NCBI GenBank assembly: GCA_008360955.1
Contig: LUCM01003804.1
Location: 216,957 to 280,956, forward strand
Direction: 5' to 3'
Origin: Fasciolopsis buskii
Lineage: Eukaryota; Platyhelminthes; Trematoda; Plagiorchiida; Fasciolidae
Length of the DNA: 64,000 bases
The notes beneath the pieces were generated by a model. It made no database searches. It was given only the letters and a program-made list of their open reading frames with translations, and was not told where the DNA came from. Position 1 is the first letter of the stretch. Every line of letters starts with the position of its first letter. A program made the position numbers and the translations under genes. Of this stretch, positions 17,081 to 47,429 are shown one piece after another.

Positions 17081-17658
17081 TAGTCCAAACAGCAACATGT
17101 GGTGTGGACAATAGGTCTACGCATGCAAACAATGTTTGGTAGAAATATCAAGCTTACTAAAGGCATTATTTGGCCAAATGGTCGACCGGTCAGCATCGTG
17201 GCTTTCCAGCAGGGAAATGCCATTCGTTCAAATTTTTCCACCACCGAATAAATTCTCCATTTGGCAGCACTTTGTTGGCCTTTATTTTGTACACGGTTGG
17301 AAAAAGCTGTGAAATAAAGTGGAGTAATATCAAGAGCTCAATGGAAAATTGTCATATGGAGCCAGATCACAGCTCCAGGGACAATAGTTAACTTCCTAGA
17401 TGAGCCATTTAGCCGGAAAACTGTAACGTAGGGCAGGTGTAGAAGCCAATTTTGAAGGCAAAACGACGTATCTCTTATTCTGGCCCGCGGACAAATTCCA
17501 GTCACGAGTTCGCACATTGACAACAAAAAATACTTGATCATTTGATCTCCGGTTGCTGAAACCTGTTGCACGGTCTGCTCATCGGAACTGGACAAGAGTA
17601 AGAAAGGAACAGTCTCAACACGCCCATGTGTGCAGACATGTCTGACCCAGATATCGTT

Positions 17659-17768
17659 CATTCAGAAAACAAGTTGGCGAACAAGCTCGTTTTCAGTGAT
17701 TCGCACTCATGCCATTATATCACTATATATATATCTTGACAAAATATTTTCACTATAGGAAGGATTGG
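17659..17768 (-). repeat. 3'-end arm of the Penelope-like element's inverted repeat
   Basis: These 110 bp are the reverse complement of 19,237-19,350 with few mismatches and a different length of an internal AT run. They begin with CATTCAGAAAACAAG and end with GGAAGGATTGG. In element direction this is the 3' terminal segment. The arm is open as protein on both sides, which explains spurious plus-strand frames here. Confidence 0.9.
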
Positions 17769-17810
17769 ATTAGTCAGATACAAATATGGGTGGGGAAGGG
17801 ATTTGTGGTG

Positions 17811-18476
17811 TTAACTGTTTTGTTGTCTGGGGTTTGTATTAGGACGGATTGCGACAGCTTCCGCAGTGCTCAAGGGGCGACACTTTGCCAACCTGGATTG
17901 TTGACCTCTGACCTTATACAGGGTCCGGAAAGCTTGCGTCACATTCACGGTGTGGTTAGTCTGTGCTAGATGTGAAACAACTGCGCTATCAGGTGACTTA
18001 ATTGTTCCAGTGCCTAACCATGCTGGGTGGCGCTCACGGATGCGTTCAGACAAGCACCTAGTCGTGCGGCCGATGTACATGGTCCCACAGGAACATGTGA
18101 AGGAATAGATACAAAACGAGGCTGCAGAATCAGGGACTTTGTCTTTCAACCATATTGACACTACGGGGCGGGATTTGAACAGGATACGAAGCTTGGCTTC
18201 GTAGAATGTCTTGTTGATAGCACTAGTCAGTCTTCGTCGTGCTATCTCTGCTAGCGTGTTACCTTTGAATGGCAGAGATATGTATACTGGCTTTCTCTCC
18301 ACCGTCGCCCTCCTAGGAACTTCCTGCTCTGTCTCCAACATCTTGTCGATTAATCTAATTGGGAAACTATTTTCAGTGAATACTCTTCTGAGCGTCTGCA
18401 GTTCAGCCTCAATAGTATCTTCTGTGCATATTCTTTTTGTCCTGGCAATCAGACATCTAATTAAGTTCCTCTTCAC
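17811..18476 (-). pseudogene. Penelope-like GIY-YIG endonuclease domain
   Basis: This is the 221-codon downstream part of the same broken polyprotein. Its frame stays open upstream to about 18,539, giving 21 more codons of the RT-endonuclease linker, so the ATG at 18,476 is unlikely to be a real start. The GIY-YIG nuclease lies at about residues 123-210. It shows the YSFTCSCGTMYIGRTTR core (C128 and C130 as a likely metal-binding pair, MYIG as the second half of the name motif), the helix arginines in CLSERIRERH, a downstream SxxxSHL...H segment, and the conserved acidic residue in STAEAVAI (about E206). This domain nicks target DNA for primed reverse transcription. The natural stop at 17,811-17,813 is followed by only about 40 bp before the terminal arm. 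Confidence 0.9.
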
Positions 18477-18477
18477 A

Positions 18478-19335
18478 TTAAGAGGTACAAAGCTGTGGAA
18501 GTTGATGTATTGCCCATTCCATGTGGCTTTCCTGTGTACTGGATCGCCGAATGGAGCCGTCTTCTCGACGACTTAGTCGTACATCTAAGAAAGCTATTTC
18601 ACTGTTCAGCTCCATCTCTGTTGTGAATTTCAAATTTGCGTGAGCCGATTTGAACATATTCAACAGTTGTTTAGTTTTCGTCGAGGGGTTGAGTACACAG
18701 AAGATGTCATCCACATAACGCTTGTATAGGTAGAGCGATTGTATTGACGACTCGAGTGGTCCACGTTCCAGCTTTGCCATGAAAATGTCAGCTAGTAGCG
18801 GACCGAGTGGGGATCCCATCGCCACGCCGTCCTTTTGACGGTAAATTTGATTATTAAATTTAAATTGGACGTTGTAGGTACAAAAGAGCAATAGTTGTTT
18901 CAAGTCTGCTATCGGGAGACTTGTCGCTAAGCCATTGTTCTCGATGTAGTCACAGAGGTATTCGATTGTCTCCGTGATCGGAACGTTGGTAAAAAGGGCG
19001 GTGACGTCTAAAGAAAGCATTCTTTGTCCCTTCATATTTAGTTCTTTCACGGAATCGATAAGCTCAAATGTGTCTTTGAGACTATGTTTTGCTACCTTCT
19101 GTCTAAAGGGTTCCAGTAACCTAGCTAACCATTTTGCCACAGCATGGTACGGCGAATTGCACATGTCGAGAATAGGCCTCAGAGGTGCTCCATTTTTATG
19201 TAATTTGGGTAGGCCGTACAAACTTGGAATAGTCGCCCAATCCTTCCTATAGTGAAAATATTTTGTTAAGATATATATATATATAGTGATGTAATGGCAT
19301 GAGTACGAATCCCTGAAAACGAGCTTGTTCGCCAA
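18478..19335 (-). pseudogene. Penelope-like reverse transcriptase (truncated, frameshifted)
   Basis: Open frame of 285 codons encoding the catalytic core of an RNA-dependent DNA polymerase. Visible motifs are GLPKLHK (residues 41-47), RPILD (53-57), the motif A block SLDVTALFTNVP with catalytic D110, motif B KDGVAMGSPLGPLLAD (168-183), the catalytic YVDD (207-210), and the downstream FLDVRLSR block (249-256) typical of this RT class. Residues 1-33 are encoded by the inverted terminal arm, not by RT. Genuine RT sequence starts at residue 34 (position 19,236), so the ATG at 19,335 is not a native start. The C-terminus after residue 265 is out of frame and ends in an early stop. Moving to the adjacent frame at about 18,540 restores the usual RT-to-endonuclease linker. 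The catalytic residues are intact, which suggests a fairly recent insertion. Confidence 0.93.
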
Positions 19336-19350
19336 CTTGTTTTCTCAATG
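19237..19350 (-). repeat. 5'-end arm of the Penelope-like element's inverted repeat
   Basis: Inverted partner of 17,659-17,768. It is fused at 19,236/19,237 directly to the truncated reverse transcriptase: the last arm codon is TGG (W33), and the next residues, ATIPSLYGLPKLHK, are RT. The arm includes a longer AT microsatellite (about 19,270-19,284) than its partner. Confidence 0.9.
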
Positions 19351-19354
19351 TGCT

Positions 19355-21585
19355 CAGTGGTAATTTTCAAAGAATCGTTCGTTCACTTCATTGCGTTAGA
19401 GCTATCATTGCATCTGCCAGTAATGGGACATTCGTACTCCATTTGTTTTCCTTCGCGTGCTTCATTGCCACCGACCTACTCAGGTGGGTTGGATTCTATA
19501 TTGAGAACAAATTTATGACTTAGATCTCATCACCAAAAGAACAGCAACTAGTCGGCCAGATTTTTCACGGGTTCCTAGTTCATGTTTTCCATATGTGACA
19601 TCTTTAAGCTGACCAAGACACGGTTGGCTGGACAGACGTCTCCCGGTTCCCGTGTAAGCCGGCCAAGGAAGGTCAGAAGTCCTTTAATTTTCTGTCATCC
19701 CGACATGATCGCTTATTTTGCCGGAGGTCGAAATAGGCAGCCGAGAGCAAAAACGTAAAATGTAACTTTAAACTTCAGATCAAACAACTGAAATTTGCAT
19801 AAAACTCGCTCATATTCTGTCGTATAGATGACAGGAAGATAATATTGATAGTTGAACGGAAACTGCAGGCTTCAAAAGAAACGATTAGTGGGCGGCAGCT
19901 GGTTGCTGGTCCACAGACCAACAGATCGATGATGTCTATTGCGATAGATGTTACCCATAGTTAAAAACAGAGAAAAAACATGACTAGAACGAGAGCGAGA
20001 ATGAAAGCCGGAGTAATTTGATCTAGTTGGGCAATTGTCAATGTTCTTGGTGGATGTGTTGTTGTAACAAATCTATTTGTGTGCTTACAAGGCAATTCGG
20101 AGGTAACAAAAACAAATGATTCTCACGTGGTTGTTTTGCCTTTAAAATAGTGCCACGAAAGCAATTAATAGATCACTGAAAAAGGGACATGGAGCTGGAA
20201 AGCTGATTCGGAAGCATAGTGTTAGGAAAGTTGTAACTTACTTATTGGCGAGCGGTTTTGCCTCTGAGTTAAATGTCCCTAGCTGAAGGATCGGAAGATG
20301 AATACTTCAAGCAACTCTAGTGTTCTTGTCCATCTGATTGCCAAATGGAATTCACTTGGGGTTTTTTGAGTCAATATTTTTTGCCATTTTACGCTGTGCG
20401 CTCTCAGTATTATATGTGCTACCTTAAACTATATCACAACATGCTATACTGGGCTACTCTATACTACATCACATGTTTCCTATTAGAAAATAAAATTATT
20501 GTCGCCTTCTAAGAAACATTTTAGTAGGTTACCTTTTTGATCTAAATAACTTCGTTGTTGGCGAATTGCATCAGAGAGCAAAAACCATCGAACGTATCAC
20601 ACTTTGGTCAGTTCTGGTCCACAGGGCATTTGGAACAGCTTTGTTCTAGTATATTGCCCATACAACAATCATATTCACTTGGAGAAGCTGGAAAACCGTT
20701 ATTCTCGTGCAGAATTACACGGAAAAATGTCGAAAACAGTCGAACATTAGACGAATAACTTCATAAAATGTTGTGCAACACGTAGATAAATCCAGGCTCG
20801 TCAATTTTGGTTTGTTATTACAGTAAGTAGATCTGTGGACACATAACTCCACCTATGAACGGATTTATCTTTCTGTGATTCAAATTCAAGCCACAGGTTC
20901 CAGGGCACAAACAAAACGGATGGTTTTTTTCTAACTGTAAAACTAGGGGGGGGGGCTGCCTATAGACCAAATGATCCATTACAGGACAAAGATATTTTCG
21001 ATCACCAGAATTGATTCACCACAATAATGAGAACATTTAGAATATCTGCTCGAAGGATTTCGGGACTCCGTGGGCAATATGTGCATGACTAAATACTGAG
21101 ATAGTGAAGGACGAAATAAAATGCTTTTGTTTATTAATTACATGTTTTCACGGCAGTTAATTTACCCAAGGTTTAACAATGATGCGAGTGCTCAGTTTGC
21201 CGAGGTTCAGGGAAACACCTTAATGGAGAGACGATTGCCGTTCATTGACCCCGGACGAAATGAAGTCGTTCGGATGGACTAGGTTGGAAAAATCTCGGTT
21301 GTACTAAGCAAAGTCAAAATCAAATAACTGATCAGATAAACCACGGAAACTACCACAAATACACTATCGCTAACAAAAAATAATAGTTTTATTAAATTTC
21401 TGACAGTAAGCAACGCACAAGCACACACTGAGTCCAAAAAACGCTGTGCCCATATCATTTGCTCATGCTATTCAACTATCCGTTTACAATAACATGCATA
21501 CAGTGTCCACATTTAACTTCAAATATACGTGTCTAAAACTTGGTAGAAAATGAATGCCCAGGTTGTCGACGGTGACCATAGCAAC
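19355..21585. other. No gene seen
   Basis: Flank of the Penelope-like element. A run of G preceded by CTAG near 20,945 and followed by GCTGCC, read on minus, faintly resembles the C-run of the second SINE family body; too short to call. Confidence 0.55.
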
Positions 21586-44399: not shown

Positions 44400-45525
44400 A
44401 CTAGTCAAATGAAACAGGTCTACAGCGCTTCAGTGCATTTCAACGCTGAGTTACAGTTTCCTATGGTACATTGAGTTAGCGGATCATCACGAAGTTTTTG
44501 AAGAAGTAAACATGCATTGTTTGGTTTGTTTTCAATTCTGTAAAAGAAACATCTAATTCCATCTGGTGCAATTTACTAAACTGGCACAAATTGAACTGAG
44601 GATCCAGGGATTCACTGATACTTGTGATCAGACTGCATTCGCACCTAATTACATTTACGAAATCCACCAGTCTCCCGTGGGATTGTCTGGTCTCGTTGAC
44701 GGGTTCACACAACCAAACCATGATAGTTTTCTTCAAACACATCGAAAGAAATGACTTCCAACTCTCGCATGTGATTGACCCATGTGAAAATTAGGCTGAA
44801 CAAGATATTTGCTACAAGCACAATCGAAAGACTTGATGGATTGCACGGAGCCTGAGTGATTCTCGGCGTACCCGAATACCATACAGTACAACTTACATAG
44901 AGGAATAGAGACATAGAGACAGAGACATCATACCTGGGATCATCGTGAAACCGATCAAGTGATCTGCGGTTAATTACAAGCGATGCAACCCATATTGCAT
45001 TCAGCATTGAGGACAGACAAATTCGGGCTAGAGAATGACCGATCAAAGTAAACTTATTCTCCGAAATGAATGGCGGCCAATGGGAAGCAGGGGTACGAAT
45101 TCGAGCTAAGTTGGGAACGTATCTCGAGTTGATGGACCAATTGAACTGGTTGACGTAGAACCTGTCCGGAAAACGTTATTGGGGGTGGATAAAACGTCGA
45201 CCAATTGACAAACATAAGGGTTGATATATCATAGGATGGGAAAACCCAAACTCAGAAGGAATAACGCAGCAAAAGACTGTAATGAGATTTCACAGGTGCA
45301 TATTAAAAAAATACATAAGCGATGAGTTGAGATGACGGGTGTTTTGTGTTGTATTTCACTCAGTTGAGAATCAGTAATTTTCAGCCGCTACTTTCTGTCA
45401 CACGTAACTCAAGTAATTTAAGACTAGGTATTTGCTCCAAGCTAAGCAATGAGTATTTAGCAGTTAGACAGAAACCAATTATTTCACAAGGAATGACTGG
45501 ATTTTGCGGTTTCTATAAACAAATG
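44400..45525. other. No gene seen
   Basis: Between the decayed and the intact-core SINE copies. Only short unrecognised frames (60-113 codons) and no repeats I could match. Confidence 0.55.
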
Positions 45526-45581
45526 CAGTATTGGTACATTTTAGTAGTAGGAGATTGAATGTTTTCATGAAATAATTCACC

Positions 45582-45756
45582 ATGTGATATCATCGCCCAA
45601 CTCACCATTAAGAAACGATGGAAGCACTGTACACCTGTTTCATCCTTGTTAGGAATCATCAGGAGTGCATATGCACCGCGCCCGGACTGGGACGCGAACC
45701 CGAACAAGGACAAACGATTCTGAATCGAACGCCTTAGCCATTACGCTACCGGGCAG
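45582..45756 (-). mobile_element. tRNA-headed SINE carrying a hammerhead-ribozyme-like core
   Basis: On the minus strand the element begins near GCCCGGTAGCGTAATGGC. It has an A box (TAGCGTAATGGC at 45,737-45,748) and a B box (GGTTCGCGTCC at 45,690-45,700), so it can be read as a pol III-transcribed, tRNA-derived SINE head of about 75 nt. The ends of the head, GCCCGG and CCGGGC, pair as an acceptor-like stem. Downstream comes the hammerhead-like core, then a body ending near 45,582 that is shared with 44,243-44,299. It sits inside a fold-back DNA element and is absent from the opposite arm. The Sm-alpha repeats of schistosomes are a known precedent for pol III promoter plus hammerhead; similarity here is in architecture and core motif, as judged by eye. 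Confidence 0.75.
45624..45668 (-). ncRNA. Hammerhead-ribozyme-like core (type I topology)
   Basis: Read on the minus strand, the order is stem I strand GCACT (45,664-45,668), CTGATGA (45,656-45,662), stem II TTCC-TAACAA-GGAT (45,642-45,655), GAAAC (45,637-45,641), a very short stem III (AC...GT around the loop AGGT), the putative cleavage triplet GTA (45,630-45,632), and the other stem I strand AGTGC (45,624-45,628). All invariant core blocks are present in the correct order. Defects are a T-T mismatch at the base of stem II, where G-C is usual, and a C-C mismatch at the base of stem I. Very short stem III is usual for hammerheads in Penelope-like elements and retrozymes, which tend to cleave best as dimers. 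Activity of this copy is uncertain. Confidence 0.65.
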
Positions 45757-47429
45757 GCTCTGAACGGTTTGTTAAACTTCACCACATGATGTTGCACCTA
45801 TCCGTCACTGATTTGCACAGTTACTGTCCGCTAGCTCACAGCGATCGACCCCTACTGATAGATGACTTCTCTGCAGGTAGCCTAAGTACGACGAAGGCTT
45901 TGGATGTGACCTACTACTAAAATGTACCAAGTATTCAAGTTCTGTAGGTCATATCCAAAGTCTTCATCGTACTTAGGCTACCTGCAGAGAAGTCATCCAT
46001 CAAGAGGGGTTGATCGCTTGAGCTAGCGGACATTACCCGTGCAAATCAGTGACGGATAGGCGCAACGTGCTCATGTGGTGAAGTTCAATAAACCGTTCAG
46101 AGCCTGTCCGGTGAATTATTTCATGAAAATGCAGCATTATCGTTCGAAATAGAGACGTCAATTGTGTTCGATCGTAGTGAGGCACCCGTATGAATACTGA
46201 CTACGTATCGGAATGGCTCCGGTCACGGAATATGCAACCCTAAACTTTAAGGAGATCTCGTCAACTGTAAATCACGTGAAGGTTTGTCTGGAAGACATTC
46301 GTGTATACAAGAGTGAGATATAAACATCATTGGCGAAATAATTTAAGTCAAACGATCGTCGCCGAATGTTCACTTTTCATTTCTATAAATCACAACCCTT
46401 CTCAGTGGTTGTTTGTAATTTCTGGCGCTAGCCAAGCTGTATTAGACTGTCATGTGACTTGCACATAGACTAATCATAGTGAATGCATTCCGGACATAAT
46501 TGAACATTATGATCCATATGGGACTCAGCTGATCTTCTTTGTCATGGGCTCTTAGCTCATTAGGTGGAACACGTTCAAGTTGTCAAATCATGCATTCCAT
46601 GCGTACAAACTGAACCCATGGCGGGCGAGGGGCAGAGAGGGAAATTTGACAAATAGCCAATCATTTGGAAGCACACCATTGTCAGTTGTTGGAACTCGAA
46701 GAATAGTGGTCGCAATTTGGTTCCCTCAAAGTAGCGAAGAAATTCTTGCGCTATGATTCAGTGATGCGAGTTTGGGAAAGGACGAGGAAAACTGGATATT
46801 CAGAATGCAATCATCGTTTTGTGATAACCAATAAGATGCTTTACCAAAGTGCGAGAGAACATAATGAAAATTGCATCATCCCACTGAGTATCTGGTAGGA
46901 AAATTGTAAGGATATTGATCTAGTCAGCGCCCCAGAATAGCTCGTCTGTTCTGGCTAAATGTCTTGCCAGACTTGTGACTCGTCAGAATCACCTGTCGTT
47001 AAATGGTAACAAATCGGGAGCTAACTTCATCGTGTTTTGAGGAACAGATGAACAAGTGTTTATCAACCGGTAGGAAATTTGTTTACAGAATACATATTTT
47101 TTGCATCTATCTGATGAATTGCCGAATGTATCATTCAAACTAATTCCTGGGATGACAATAATTACGTAACCCAGTTGTTTTCCAGCTCACAGGTTTTATA
47201 AACTTCAGCAAACTCGGCTACAGTTTAGCTGCATAGGATTGTAAAATCGAGGAATAATAGAGTGAAAGTCCATAACTTTTCAAGAAAAGCATGGGAGGAG
47301 TGCACACTTTGGAGACAAAGTCTGGCTCGATATGAGTACATATAGCATTCACGTGTAGTATTCTCTTAACCGAATTACAACCTTGACCCTGGGAAATTCA
47401 CAGTTGTCGTGGTAATACTACACGAACCA

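Follow-up and report, generated by a model that had tools for sequence, protein, structure and literature searches.

Short interspersed elements (SINEs) in which a tRNA-like head is joined to a hammerhead ribozyme have been published from schistosomes, where Sm-alpha and Sj-alpha are the described cases (PMC2770079, PMC8490949). Sm-alpha is W36.2 in the schistosome W-element classification, and the available passages of these papers depict both as SINE-like elements of a few hundred base pairs that contain A and B boxes for pol III as well as a type I hammerhead and are present in thousands of copies (PMC2770079, PMC8490949, PMC2576457). For the S. mansoni element, an origin from tRNA-Gln(TTG) has been reported (PMC2770079). 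Metazoan non-LTR retrozymes are described, in the accessible text, with type I hammerheads, units of 150-450 bp, tandem copies, GC content below 50% and target-site duplications (TSDs) of more than 4 bp, and Penelope-like elements are regarded by the same authors as strong candidates for their mobilisation, on the indirect evidence that both carry hammerheads, form tandem copies and occur together (PMC7229834). The Penelope elements themselves appear, in the available parts of their description, with pLTRs, an adjoining inverted pLTR, an optional 31-bp tail on one inverted end, TSDs of 8-9 bp and head-to-head as the commonest arrangement (PMC3846280). According to an excerpt of a review, every available Penelope sequence carries hammerhead motifs (PMC6155905). 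Hammerheads with a minimal stem III that pair as dimers are reported, in the passages at hand, from amphibians, Penelope and W-elements (PMC7761336, PMC8490949).

Here, we describe an element of this kind in Fasciolopsis buski, the giant intestinal fluke, which is a fasciolid and no schistosome. A divergent HSP70 encoded in the assembly is 100% identical, over 99% of its length, to a protein of this species, and the next match, from Fasciola hepatica, is at 64%. As far as published descriptions go, it shares with Sm-alpha and Sj-alpha the traits listed above, but differs in its host and in its head, in which ARAGORN recognises tRNA-Leu(CAG) once its setting is lowered. With the retrozymes, it has in common the hammerhead type, unit length, tandem copies, GC content and TSDs, whereas its pol III-type tRNA head and the anatomy of its inserts set it apart (the word "inverted" has no occurrence in the retrozyme paper's text as available, PMC7229834). 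Its head-to-head inverted inserts, with a tail of ~26-31 nt on one end and a short TSD, are like those of Penelope elements and their pLTRs (PMC3846280), but the SINE has no reverse transcriptase (RT) and no sequence in common with them beyond chance. An extremely short stem III, here a self-complementary octamer, is also found in the hammerheads of newts, Penelope and schistosome W-elements as described in the passages available (PMC7761336, PMC8490949), although dimer action in the fluke SINEs is predicted from sequence. No report of tRNA-hammerhead SINEs from Fasciolidae was found in open-access titles, the beginnings of abstracts and passages, a body of text that leaves most subscription papers outside. 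Elements of this kind are already known. What is new here, provisionally, is that the host belongs to the fasciolids, that stem III is of the dimer type and that the inserts follow a Penelope-type anatomy.

The window copy and its family

The window (the whole 64,000-nucleotide stretch analysed) contains, on its minus strand, one copy of a high-copy, tRNA-headed SINE of ~400 bp with a type I hammerhead (copy A, Table 1). An earlier note on this DNA had listed an A box, a B box, CTGATGA, a stem-loop, GAAAC, a GTA triplet and a closing stem I, in this order, and all of the blocks were found so on the minus strand. The extent that it assigned to the element (45582-45756) was too small, since copy A spans 45531-45914 and faces a second copy, B, the two being flanked by a 12-bp TSD with one mismatch. 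Copy B (45910-46129) has lost consensus positions R168-333, that is, the whole tRNA and hammerhead block, by a deletion located at a GGT repeat; the resulting junction is found twice genome-wide, in copy B and in one other place. From the hammerhead consensus, cleavage is predicted between A45630 and C45629 (after R285), about 60-115 nt upstream of the insertion ends. The head-to-head layout also disposes of several weaker candidates. A 21-bp exact inverted pair (45531-45551 and 45910-45930) that could be read as a MITE is in both arms the tail R364-384 of two opposed copies, and the same cause underlies a 5-bp ATACT duplication that flanks just copy A. Weak matches to mir-266, mir-192 and MIR8024 at 45889-45967 are the centre of the palindrome.

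Table 1. Coordinates of the features in the window (R, position in the SINE consensus)
Feature	Position	Strand	Details
SINE copy A, R1 (45914) to R384 (45531)	45531..45914	-	96.9% identity to family consensus over 384 nt
Copy A outer 3' end, long (tailed) class	45531-45533	-	
tRNA-like head with pol III A and B boxes	45678..45754	-	Rfam tRNA 18.6 bits, below cut-off 29; boxes seen in sequence
Type I hammerhead, weakened copy	45607..45681	-	Hammerhead_HH9 23.6 bits, E 0.0022, below cut-off 52
Stem I 5' arm GCACTC (family GCACTG)	45663..45668	-	Last C faces C, a mismatch adjoining the core
Hammerhead core CTGATGA	45656..45662	-	
Hammerhead stem-loop TTCCTAACAAGGAT	between CTGATGA and GAAAC	-	
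Hammerhead core GAAAC	45637..45641	-	
Stem III loop AGGT	45633..45636	-	Family AGCT, giving self-complementary ACAGCTGT
Cleavage triplet GTA	45632-45630	-	
Stem I 3' arm CAGTGC	45624..45629	-	
SINE copy B part 1, R364-397 then R1-167	45910..46112	+	Across unit boundary; head-to-head with copy A
SINE copy B part 2, R334-353	46110..46129	+	Short outer 3' end
Target-site duplication, left, AAATGCAGTATT	45521..45532	+	
Target-site duplication, right, AAATGCAGCATT	46127..46138	+	
Penelope-like insert, including an RT gene on this strand	17653..19385	-	Pfam RVT_1 E 3.8e-13
Penelope-like insert, inverted 3'-end copy	19237-19373	+	
Penelope-like insert, target-site duplications	17653-17664 and 19374-19385		12 bp, 11/12 match

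A 195-base query was searched against the whole genome assembly (703,196,239 bases in 6974 contigs), and scoring of the best 40 of 2973 first-look candidates yielded 40 near-full matches (93-100% identity) plus 5 partial ones (81-97%). Thirty loci of this family (family 1, L009-L038) were cut out; they were chosen as spanning the R285/286 cut site and represent the best-scoring places, not a random sample. The family 1 consensus has 397 nt and a GC content of 47.1%, and the units of one tandem array (L028) are spaced at 400 bp. In the consensus, ARAGORN recognised a tRNA-Leu(CAG) of 77 nt (R161-237) when set to 95%, and no tRNA at its default setting. Conservation along the unit, calculated per bin, is among the best at the A box (0.985-0.989) and average at the B box (0.936-0.959).

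Hammerhead core, stem III palindrome and a second family

Taken alone, the window copy is weak evidence for a hammerhead. The pattern CTGATGA-N6..20-GAAAC occurs once in the window versus 0.15 expected (13 of 100 shuffles have one), and the looser CTGATGA-N4..24-GAAA, with one occurrence versus 1.41 expected, is at the level of chance. At Rfam gathering thresholds, there was no match anywhere in the window. A search with Rfam models, as the earlier note had proposed for Hammerhead_1, gave Hammerhead_HH9 at an E value of 0.0022 (this and the tRNA match were computed on 701 bases) and a score of 23.6 bits, under the cut-off of 52. Free folding of the region was no better than that of shuffled sequences (z -0.58), and the energy of the hammerhead structure is -7.8 kcal/mol in the consensus and -5.6 kcal/mol in the window copy. 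A model of the family 1 hammerhead gives the window copy 95.7 bits, this copy being one of the 25 sequences used to build the model. Elsewhere in the window, the hammerhead model gives a weak score to 2057-2120 on the minus strand, at 22.6 bits and E 0.0013; this stretch has GATGATTCCTAACAA in common and is probably a decayed copy. Pattern matches in viral and prokaryote contigs (L001-L008) were set aside as hits of a loose pattern in the DNA of other organisms.

It is the family, and not the window copy by itself, that establishes the hammerhead, because the exact 45-nt consensus (from GCACTG to CAGTGC) is present 1009 times in the genome (519 + 490), while the reversed control gave 0. Conservation of the blocks across copies, by which the earlier note had proposed to judge the element, was counted in the 52 hammerhead-spanning copies of the 30 loci: CTGATGA is kept in 40 and GAAA in 50, stem I has all of its six pairs in 45 if G-T is accepted as a pair, and 33 copies combine the three features. 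These conserved blocks, with the 1009 exact copies, uphold the view of a SINE family related or parallel to Sm-alpha whose hammerhead is weakened in the window. The hammerhead bins show no extra conservation relative to the rest of the unit (majority share 0.916-0.975 versus 0.864-0.990 overall), which speaks against a special constraint. In 7 of the 52 copies, at four loci (L020, L031, L032 and L034), CTCATGA replaces CTGATGA, a core change that is expected to kill cleavage. None of 21 family 1 sources (the window and 20 loci) exceeds the Rfam cut-off, and matches with E values no higher than 1 were obtained for just 15 of the 20 loci. When the genome was searched with Rfam Hammerhead_1 (73 of 111,921 first-look candidates scored), there were 8 matches, only one of them over the cut-off, and family 1 reached at best 33.9 bits versus the required 34.

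Two mismatches next to the core had been taken as signs that the window copy is weakened, and this holds for one of them. The C-C mismatch is derived and rare: in its 24-nt context, the C beside the core is found 3 times genome-wide, and the window copy is therefore a weakened derivative. The T-T mismatch at the foot of stem II is instead the majority state of the aligned family 1 copies, and five copies found through Rfam (L060-L064) have CTGATGAG and a G-T at this position. In 40 of the 52 family 1 copies, stem III consists of ACAGCTGT, a perfect palindrome, whereas the window copy has ACAGGTGT. As a hairpin, stem III has 2 bp only; as a self-dimer, its energy is -11.1 kcal/mol in family 1 and -1.6 kcal/mol in the window copy, compared to -10.7 kcal/mol in the second family described below. 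With a C-C mismatch adjoining the core and a broken palindrome, the window copy probably cleaves poorly or not at all.

The one Hammerhead_1 match over the cut-off (35.4 versus 34 bits, L059) belongs to a different element, in which a tRNA-like head with GGGTTCAAATCC is followed by the hammerhead. Its relatives are 70-81% identical to it (best 40 of 205 candidates scored), and we analysed it with 20 of the 39 others, fetched as short stretches (L070-L089). This family 2 is another tRNA-hammerhead SINE family, older than the first and unlike it in the head. The consensus hammerhead has GCACCA/TGGTGC as stem I, GCTC/GAGC as stem II, ACTCGAGT as stem III and GTC as the triplet. The tRNA-like head was seen by eye, and so was the resemblance of its anticodon arm to that of Gly(CCC); a Thr call by ARAGORN on the consensus (80% setting) is implausible and was rejected. 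Among the family 2 places, L081/L085 form one head-to-head pair.

Covariance in stems I and II, which the earlier note had expected across copies, is absent within family 1, where 0 of 16 pairs changed on both sides, a result that is uninformative because the alignment is too uniform. It emerged after the second family was added. In an alignment of 8 family 1 and 21 family 2 sequences, tested against 500 shuffles, 83.3% of the cells pair (73.5% in the shuffled sets) and 11 of 14 pairs changed on both sides (7.9 in the shuffled sets; 14 of the 500 reached 11). The covariation score was 0.392 versus 0.229, a value that 0 of the 500 shuffles reached, and slid versions gave at most 0.14. There was no excess of further pair types (23 versus 22.7 shuffled). 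It should be noted that relatedness inflates these counts, which amount to a single comparison of the ancestors of the two families, with compensation at about six pairs. Judged on this alignment, stems I and II have undergone compensatory changes between the families. The self-complementary octamer of stem III is kept in spite of its change in sequence, as dimer-type hammerheads need. Its innermost pairs, 45-48 and 46-47, are standard in 26 and 22 of the 29 sequences, respectively, and since they are impossible in a hairpin yet complementary in most sequences, stem III points to pairing between two hammerheads.

Insertion anatomy of the SINE and of a Penelope-like element

At 20 of the 30 family 1 loci, the inserts are head-to-head; both 3' ends face outward, and the position of the inner breakpoints varies. 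Two classes of outer ends were set after looking at the ends, a short one (raw R344-356, plus L023 at raw 366, which the TSD puts at 351) and a long one (raw R374-388, with one at 400), at a median spacing of 27.5 nt (with L023 at 351), and a short end was paired with a long end in all 20 head-to-head inserts (P 7.6e-6 if 20 ends of each class are combined at random). These 20 retain a four-part composite (L025) and a locus with an assembly gap (L036). Allowing one mismatch, a TSD was scored in 15 of the 20 and, over all 30 loci, in 17, with lengths of 9-17 bp; at least two of the 15, those of L017 and L036, overlap element sequence, are doubtful and may be due to chance. The ten single-orientation loci comprise 8 short ends, 1 long end and 1 array with an unclear end. 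Copies that cross the junction between the end of one unit and the start of the next are frequent: in 16 of the 30 loci, one extends 20 nt or more to each side of it, and the number rises to 18 if any length is accepted. The RNA template must therefore have been circular or multimeric, and the boundary-crossing copies would be compatible with, at most, the expression of circular RNA.

The window also harbours a Penelope-like insert with an RT gene and an inverted copy of its 3' end (Table 1), in which a tail of ~24 nt is present on the right end only. A GIY-YIG endonuclease was recognised by eye in this copy, in which Pfam gave no GIY-YIG match, and in another copy there was a sub-threshold match (16.0 bits, cut-off 22.6). 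Twenty loci of the family were fetched (best 40 of 3644 candidates scored). Over 1.1 kb, the identity between some of these copies is as high as 99.9%, so the element moved recently. There are two main 3' ends, ~26 nt apart. Within a partner search limited to the 1.5-kb flank, which misses more distant partners, 6 of the 20 loci are head-to-head with the 3'-end regions outward, and all 6 have one long end (2537-2538) and one shorter end, the latter falling in the main short class (2506-2513) in 3 of them and at 2446-2482 in the other 3. With six inserts, this pairing alone gives P 0.07. Counted among the 14 single loci, of which 6 have a short end and 8 a long one, is a locus with an inverted internal piece (L046), and the same score found a TSD at 11 of the 20 loci. 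The bodies of three Penelope copies (L067, L068 and L069) contain no CTGANGA...GAAA hammerhead core. Between the SINE and two copies of one Penelope family, the shared pieces were 13-15 nt long (E 3.3) and in reverse orientation, which is the level of chance. A further locus (L090, G000:C753) is a damaged copy of mitochondrial COX1, probably nuclear. In the arrangement of their ends, the SINE inserts resemble those of a Penelope element in their own genome, and this arrangement of copies suggests that Penelope-type elements move the hammerhead SINE; the comparison of end pairing covers the SINE and one Penelope family.

Mode of movement and its alternatives

The element is probably a hammerhead SINE of the Sm-alpha/retrozyme kind whose circular or multimeric RNA is copied into DNA by the machinery of Penelope elements. 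In such a cycle, pol III would transcribe the unit plus neighbouring units, and hammerheads acting two by two, paired through their palindromic stem III, would cut the multimers into ~400-nt monomers that might then be closed into circles. A Penelope-like reverse transcriptase/endonuclease would open the target; both of its strands would then act as primers for reverse transcription, starting preferentially at two sites separated by ~27 nt, and the joining of the two cDNAs in the middle would give rise to head-to-head inserts. The multi-unit templates could, instead of circles, be run-through transcripts of genomic tandem arrays like L028. Several results speak against Penelope machinery: the SINE and the Penelope copies compared have no more sequence in common than chance allows, three Penelope bodies lack a hammerhead core, and the paired Penelope inserts are few, with half of them having a shorter end outside the main short class.

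Most tRNA SINEs are mobilised by LINEs, and the same could apply here, with the head-to-head inserts produced by twin priming. In twin priming, a single RNA is split in two, and the 5' portion is inverted relative to the 3' portion. The TSDs of 9-17 bp would fit this origin too; schistosome Sm-alpha is filed as a SINE in the passages available (PMC8293314, PMC2770079) and, of 16 hammerhead-like small-RNA clusters of S. haematobium mentioned in an accessible part of another paper, 7 overlap SINE/tRNA and 2 LINE/RTE-BovB (PMC5993326). We nevertheless consider LINE mobilisation unlikely, because the SINE inserts, unlike those of twin priming, are bounded by a 3' end on either side and often consist of two overlapping copies, and because the invariable pairing of short and long ends (20/20) is paralleled by the Penelope element of the same genome. 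It is still harder to see the unit as a non-LTR retrozyme driven by the hammerhead and circular RNA, in which the tRNA head would be a dead relic. Its size, GC content, tandem copies and type I hammerhead do match the metazoan retrozymes as described in the available text (PMC7229834), and both the failure of ARAGORN at its default setting and the average B-box bins agree with a decaying head, but the A-box bins are among the best conserved of the unit, a tRNA-Leu(CAG) is recovered at the 95% setting, and family 2 likewise has a tRNA-like head, by eye.

Whatever moves the element, the hammerhead might be a decayed passenger, inactive in every living copy, as the Rfam scores of family 1 under the cut-offs, the CTCATGA copies, the T-T pair of stem II in most copies and the folding without preference for the hammerhead would allow. 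This we hold to be improbable in view of the 1009 identical 45-nt cores, the compensatory changes between families and the palindrome that each family has as its stem III. An origin as a MITE-like or foldback DNA transposon, with the arms and TSD as terminal inverted repeats, is disfavoured to the point of being scarcely credible: a direct repeat does flank inverted arms, but the inner breakpoints vary, 10 of the 30 loci have a single orientation, some copies are in tandem, and the outer ends are ~27 nt apart.

For a Penelope-mobilised SINE, the insert anatomy described here provides structural evidence of this mobilisation in a tRNA-headed element. The paired short and long ends are a countable signature that can be scored in any assembly, and therefore, the question of mobilisation becomes directly testable. 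The two fluke families, in turn, represent a natural covariation test of palindromic, dimer-type hammerheads. More broadly, and tentatively, trematode hammerhead SINEs may be obligate parasites of Penelope elements, a SINE class with these instead of LINEs as partners, that use a circular or multimeric RNA template made by the hammerhead and in which the dimer-type hammerhead would be the conserved central module, while the tRNA head would be freely exchanged (Leu-like here, different in family 2 and reported as Gln for Sm-alpha).
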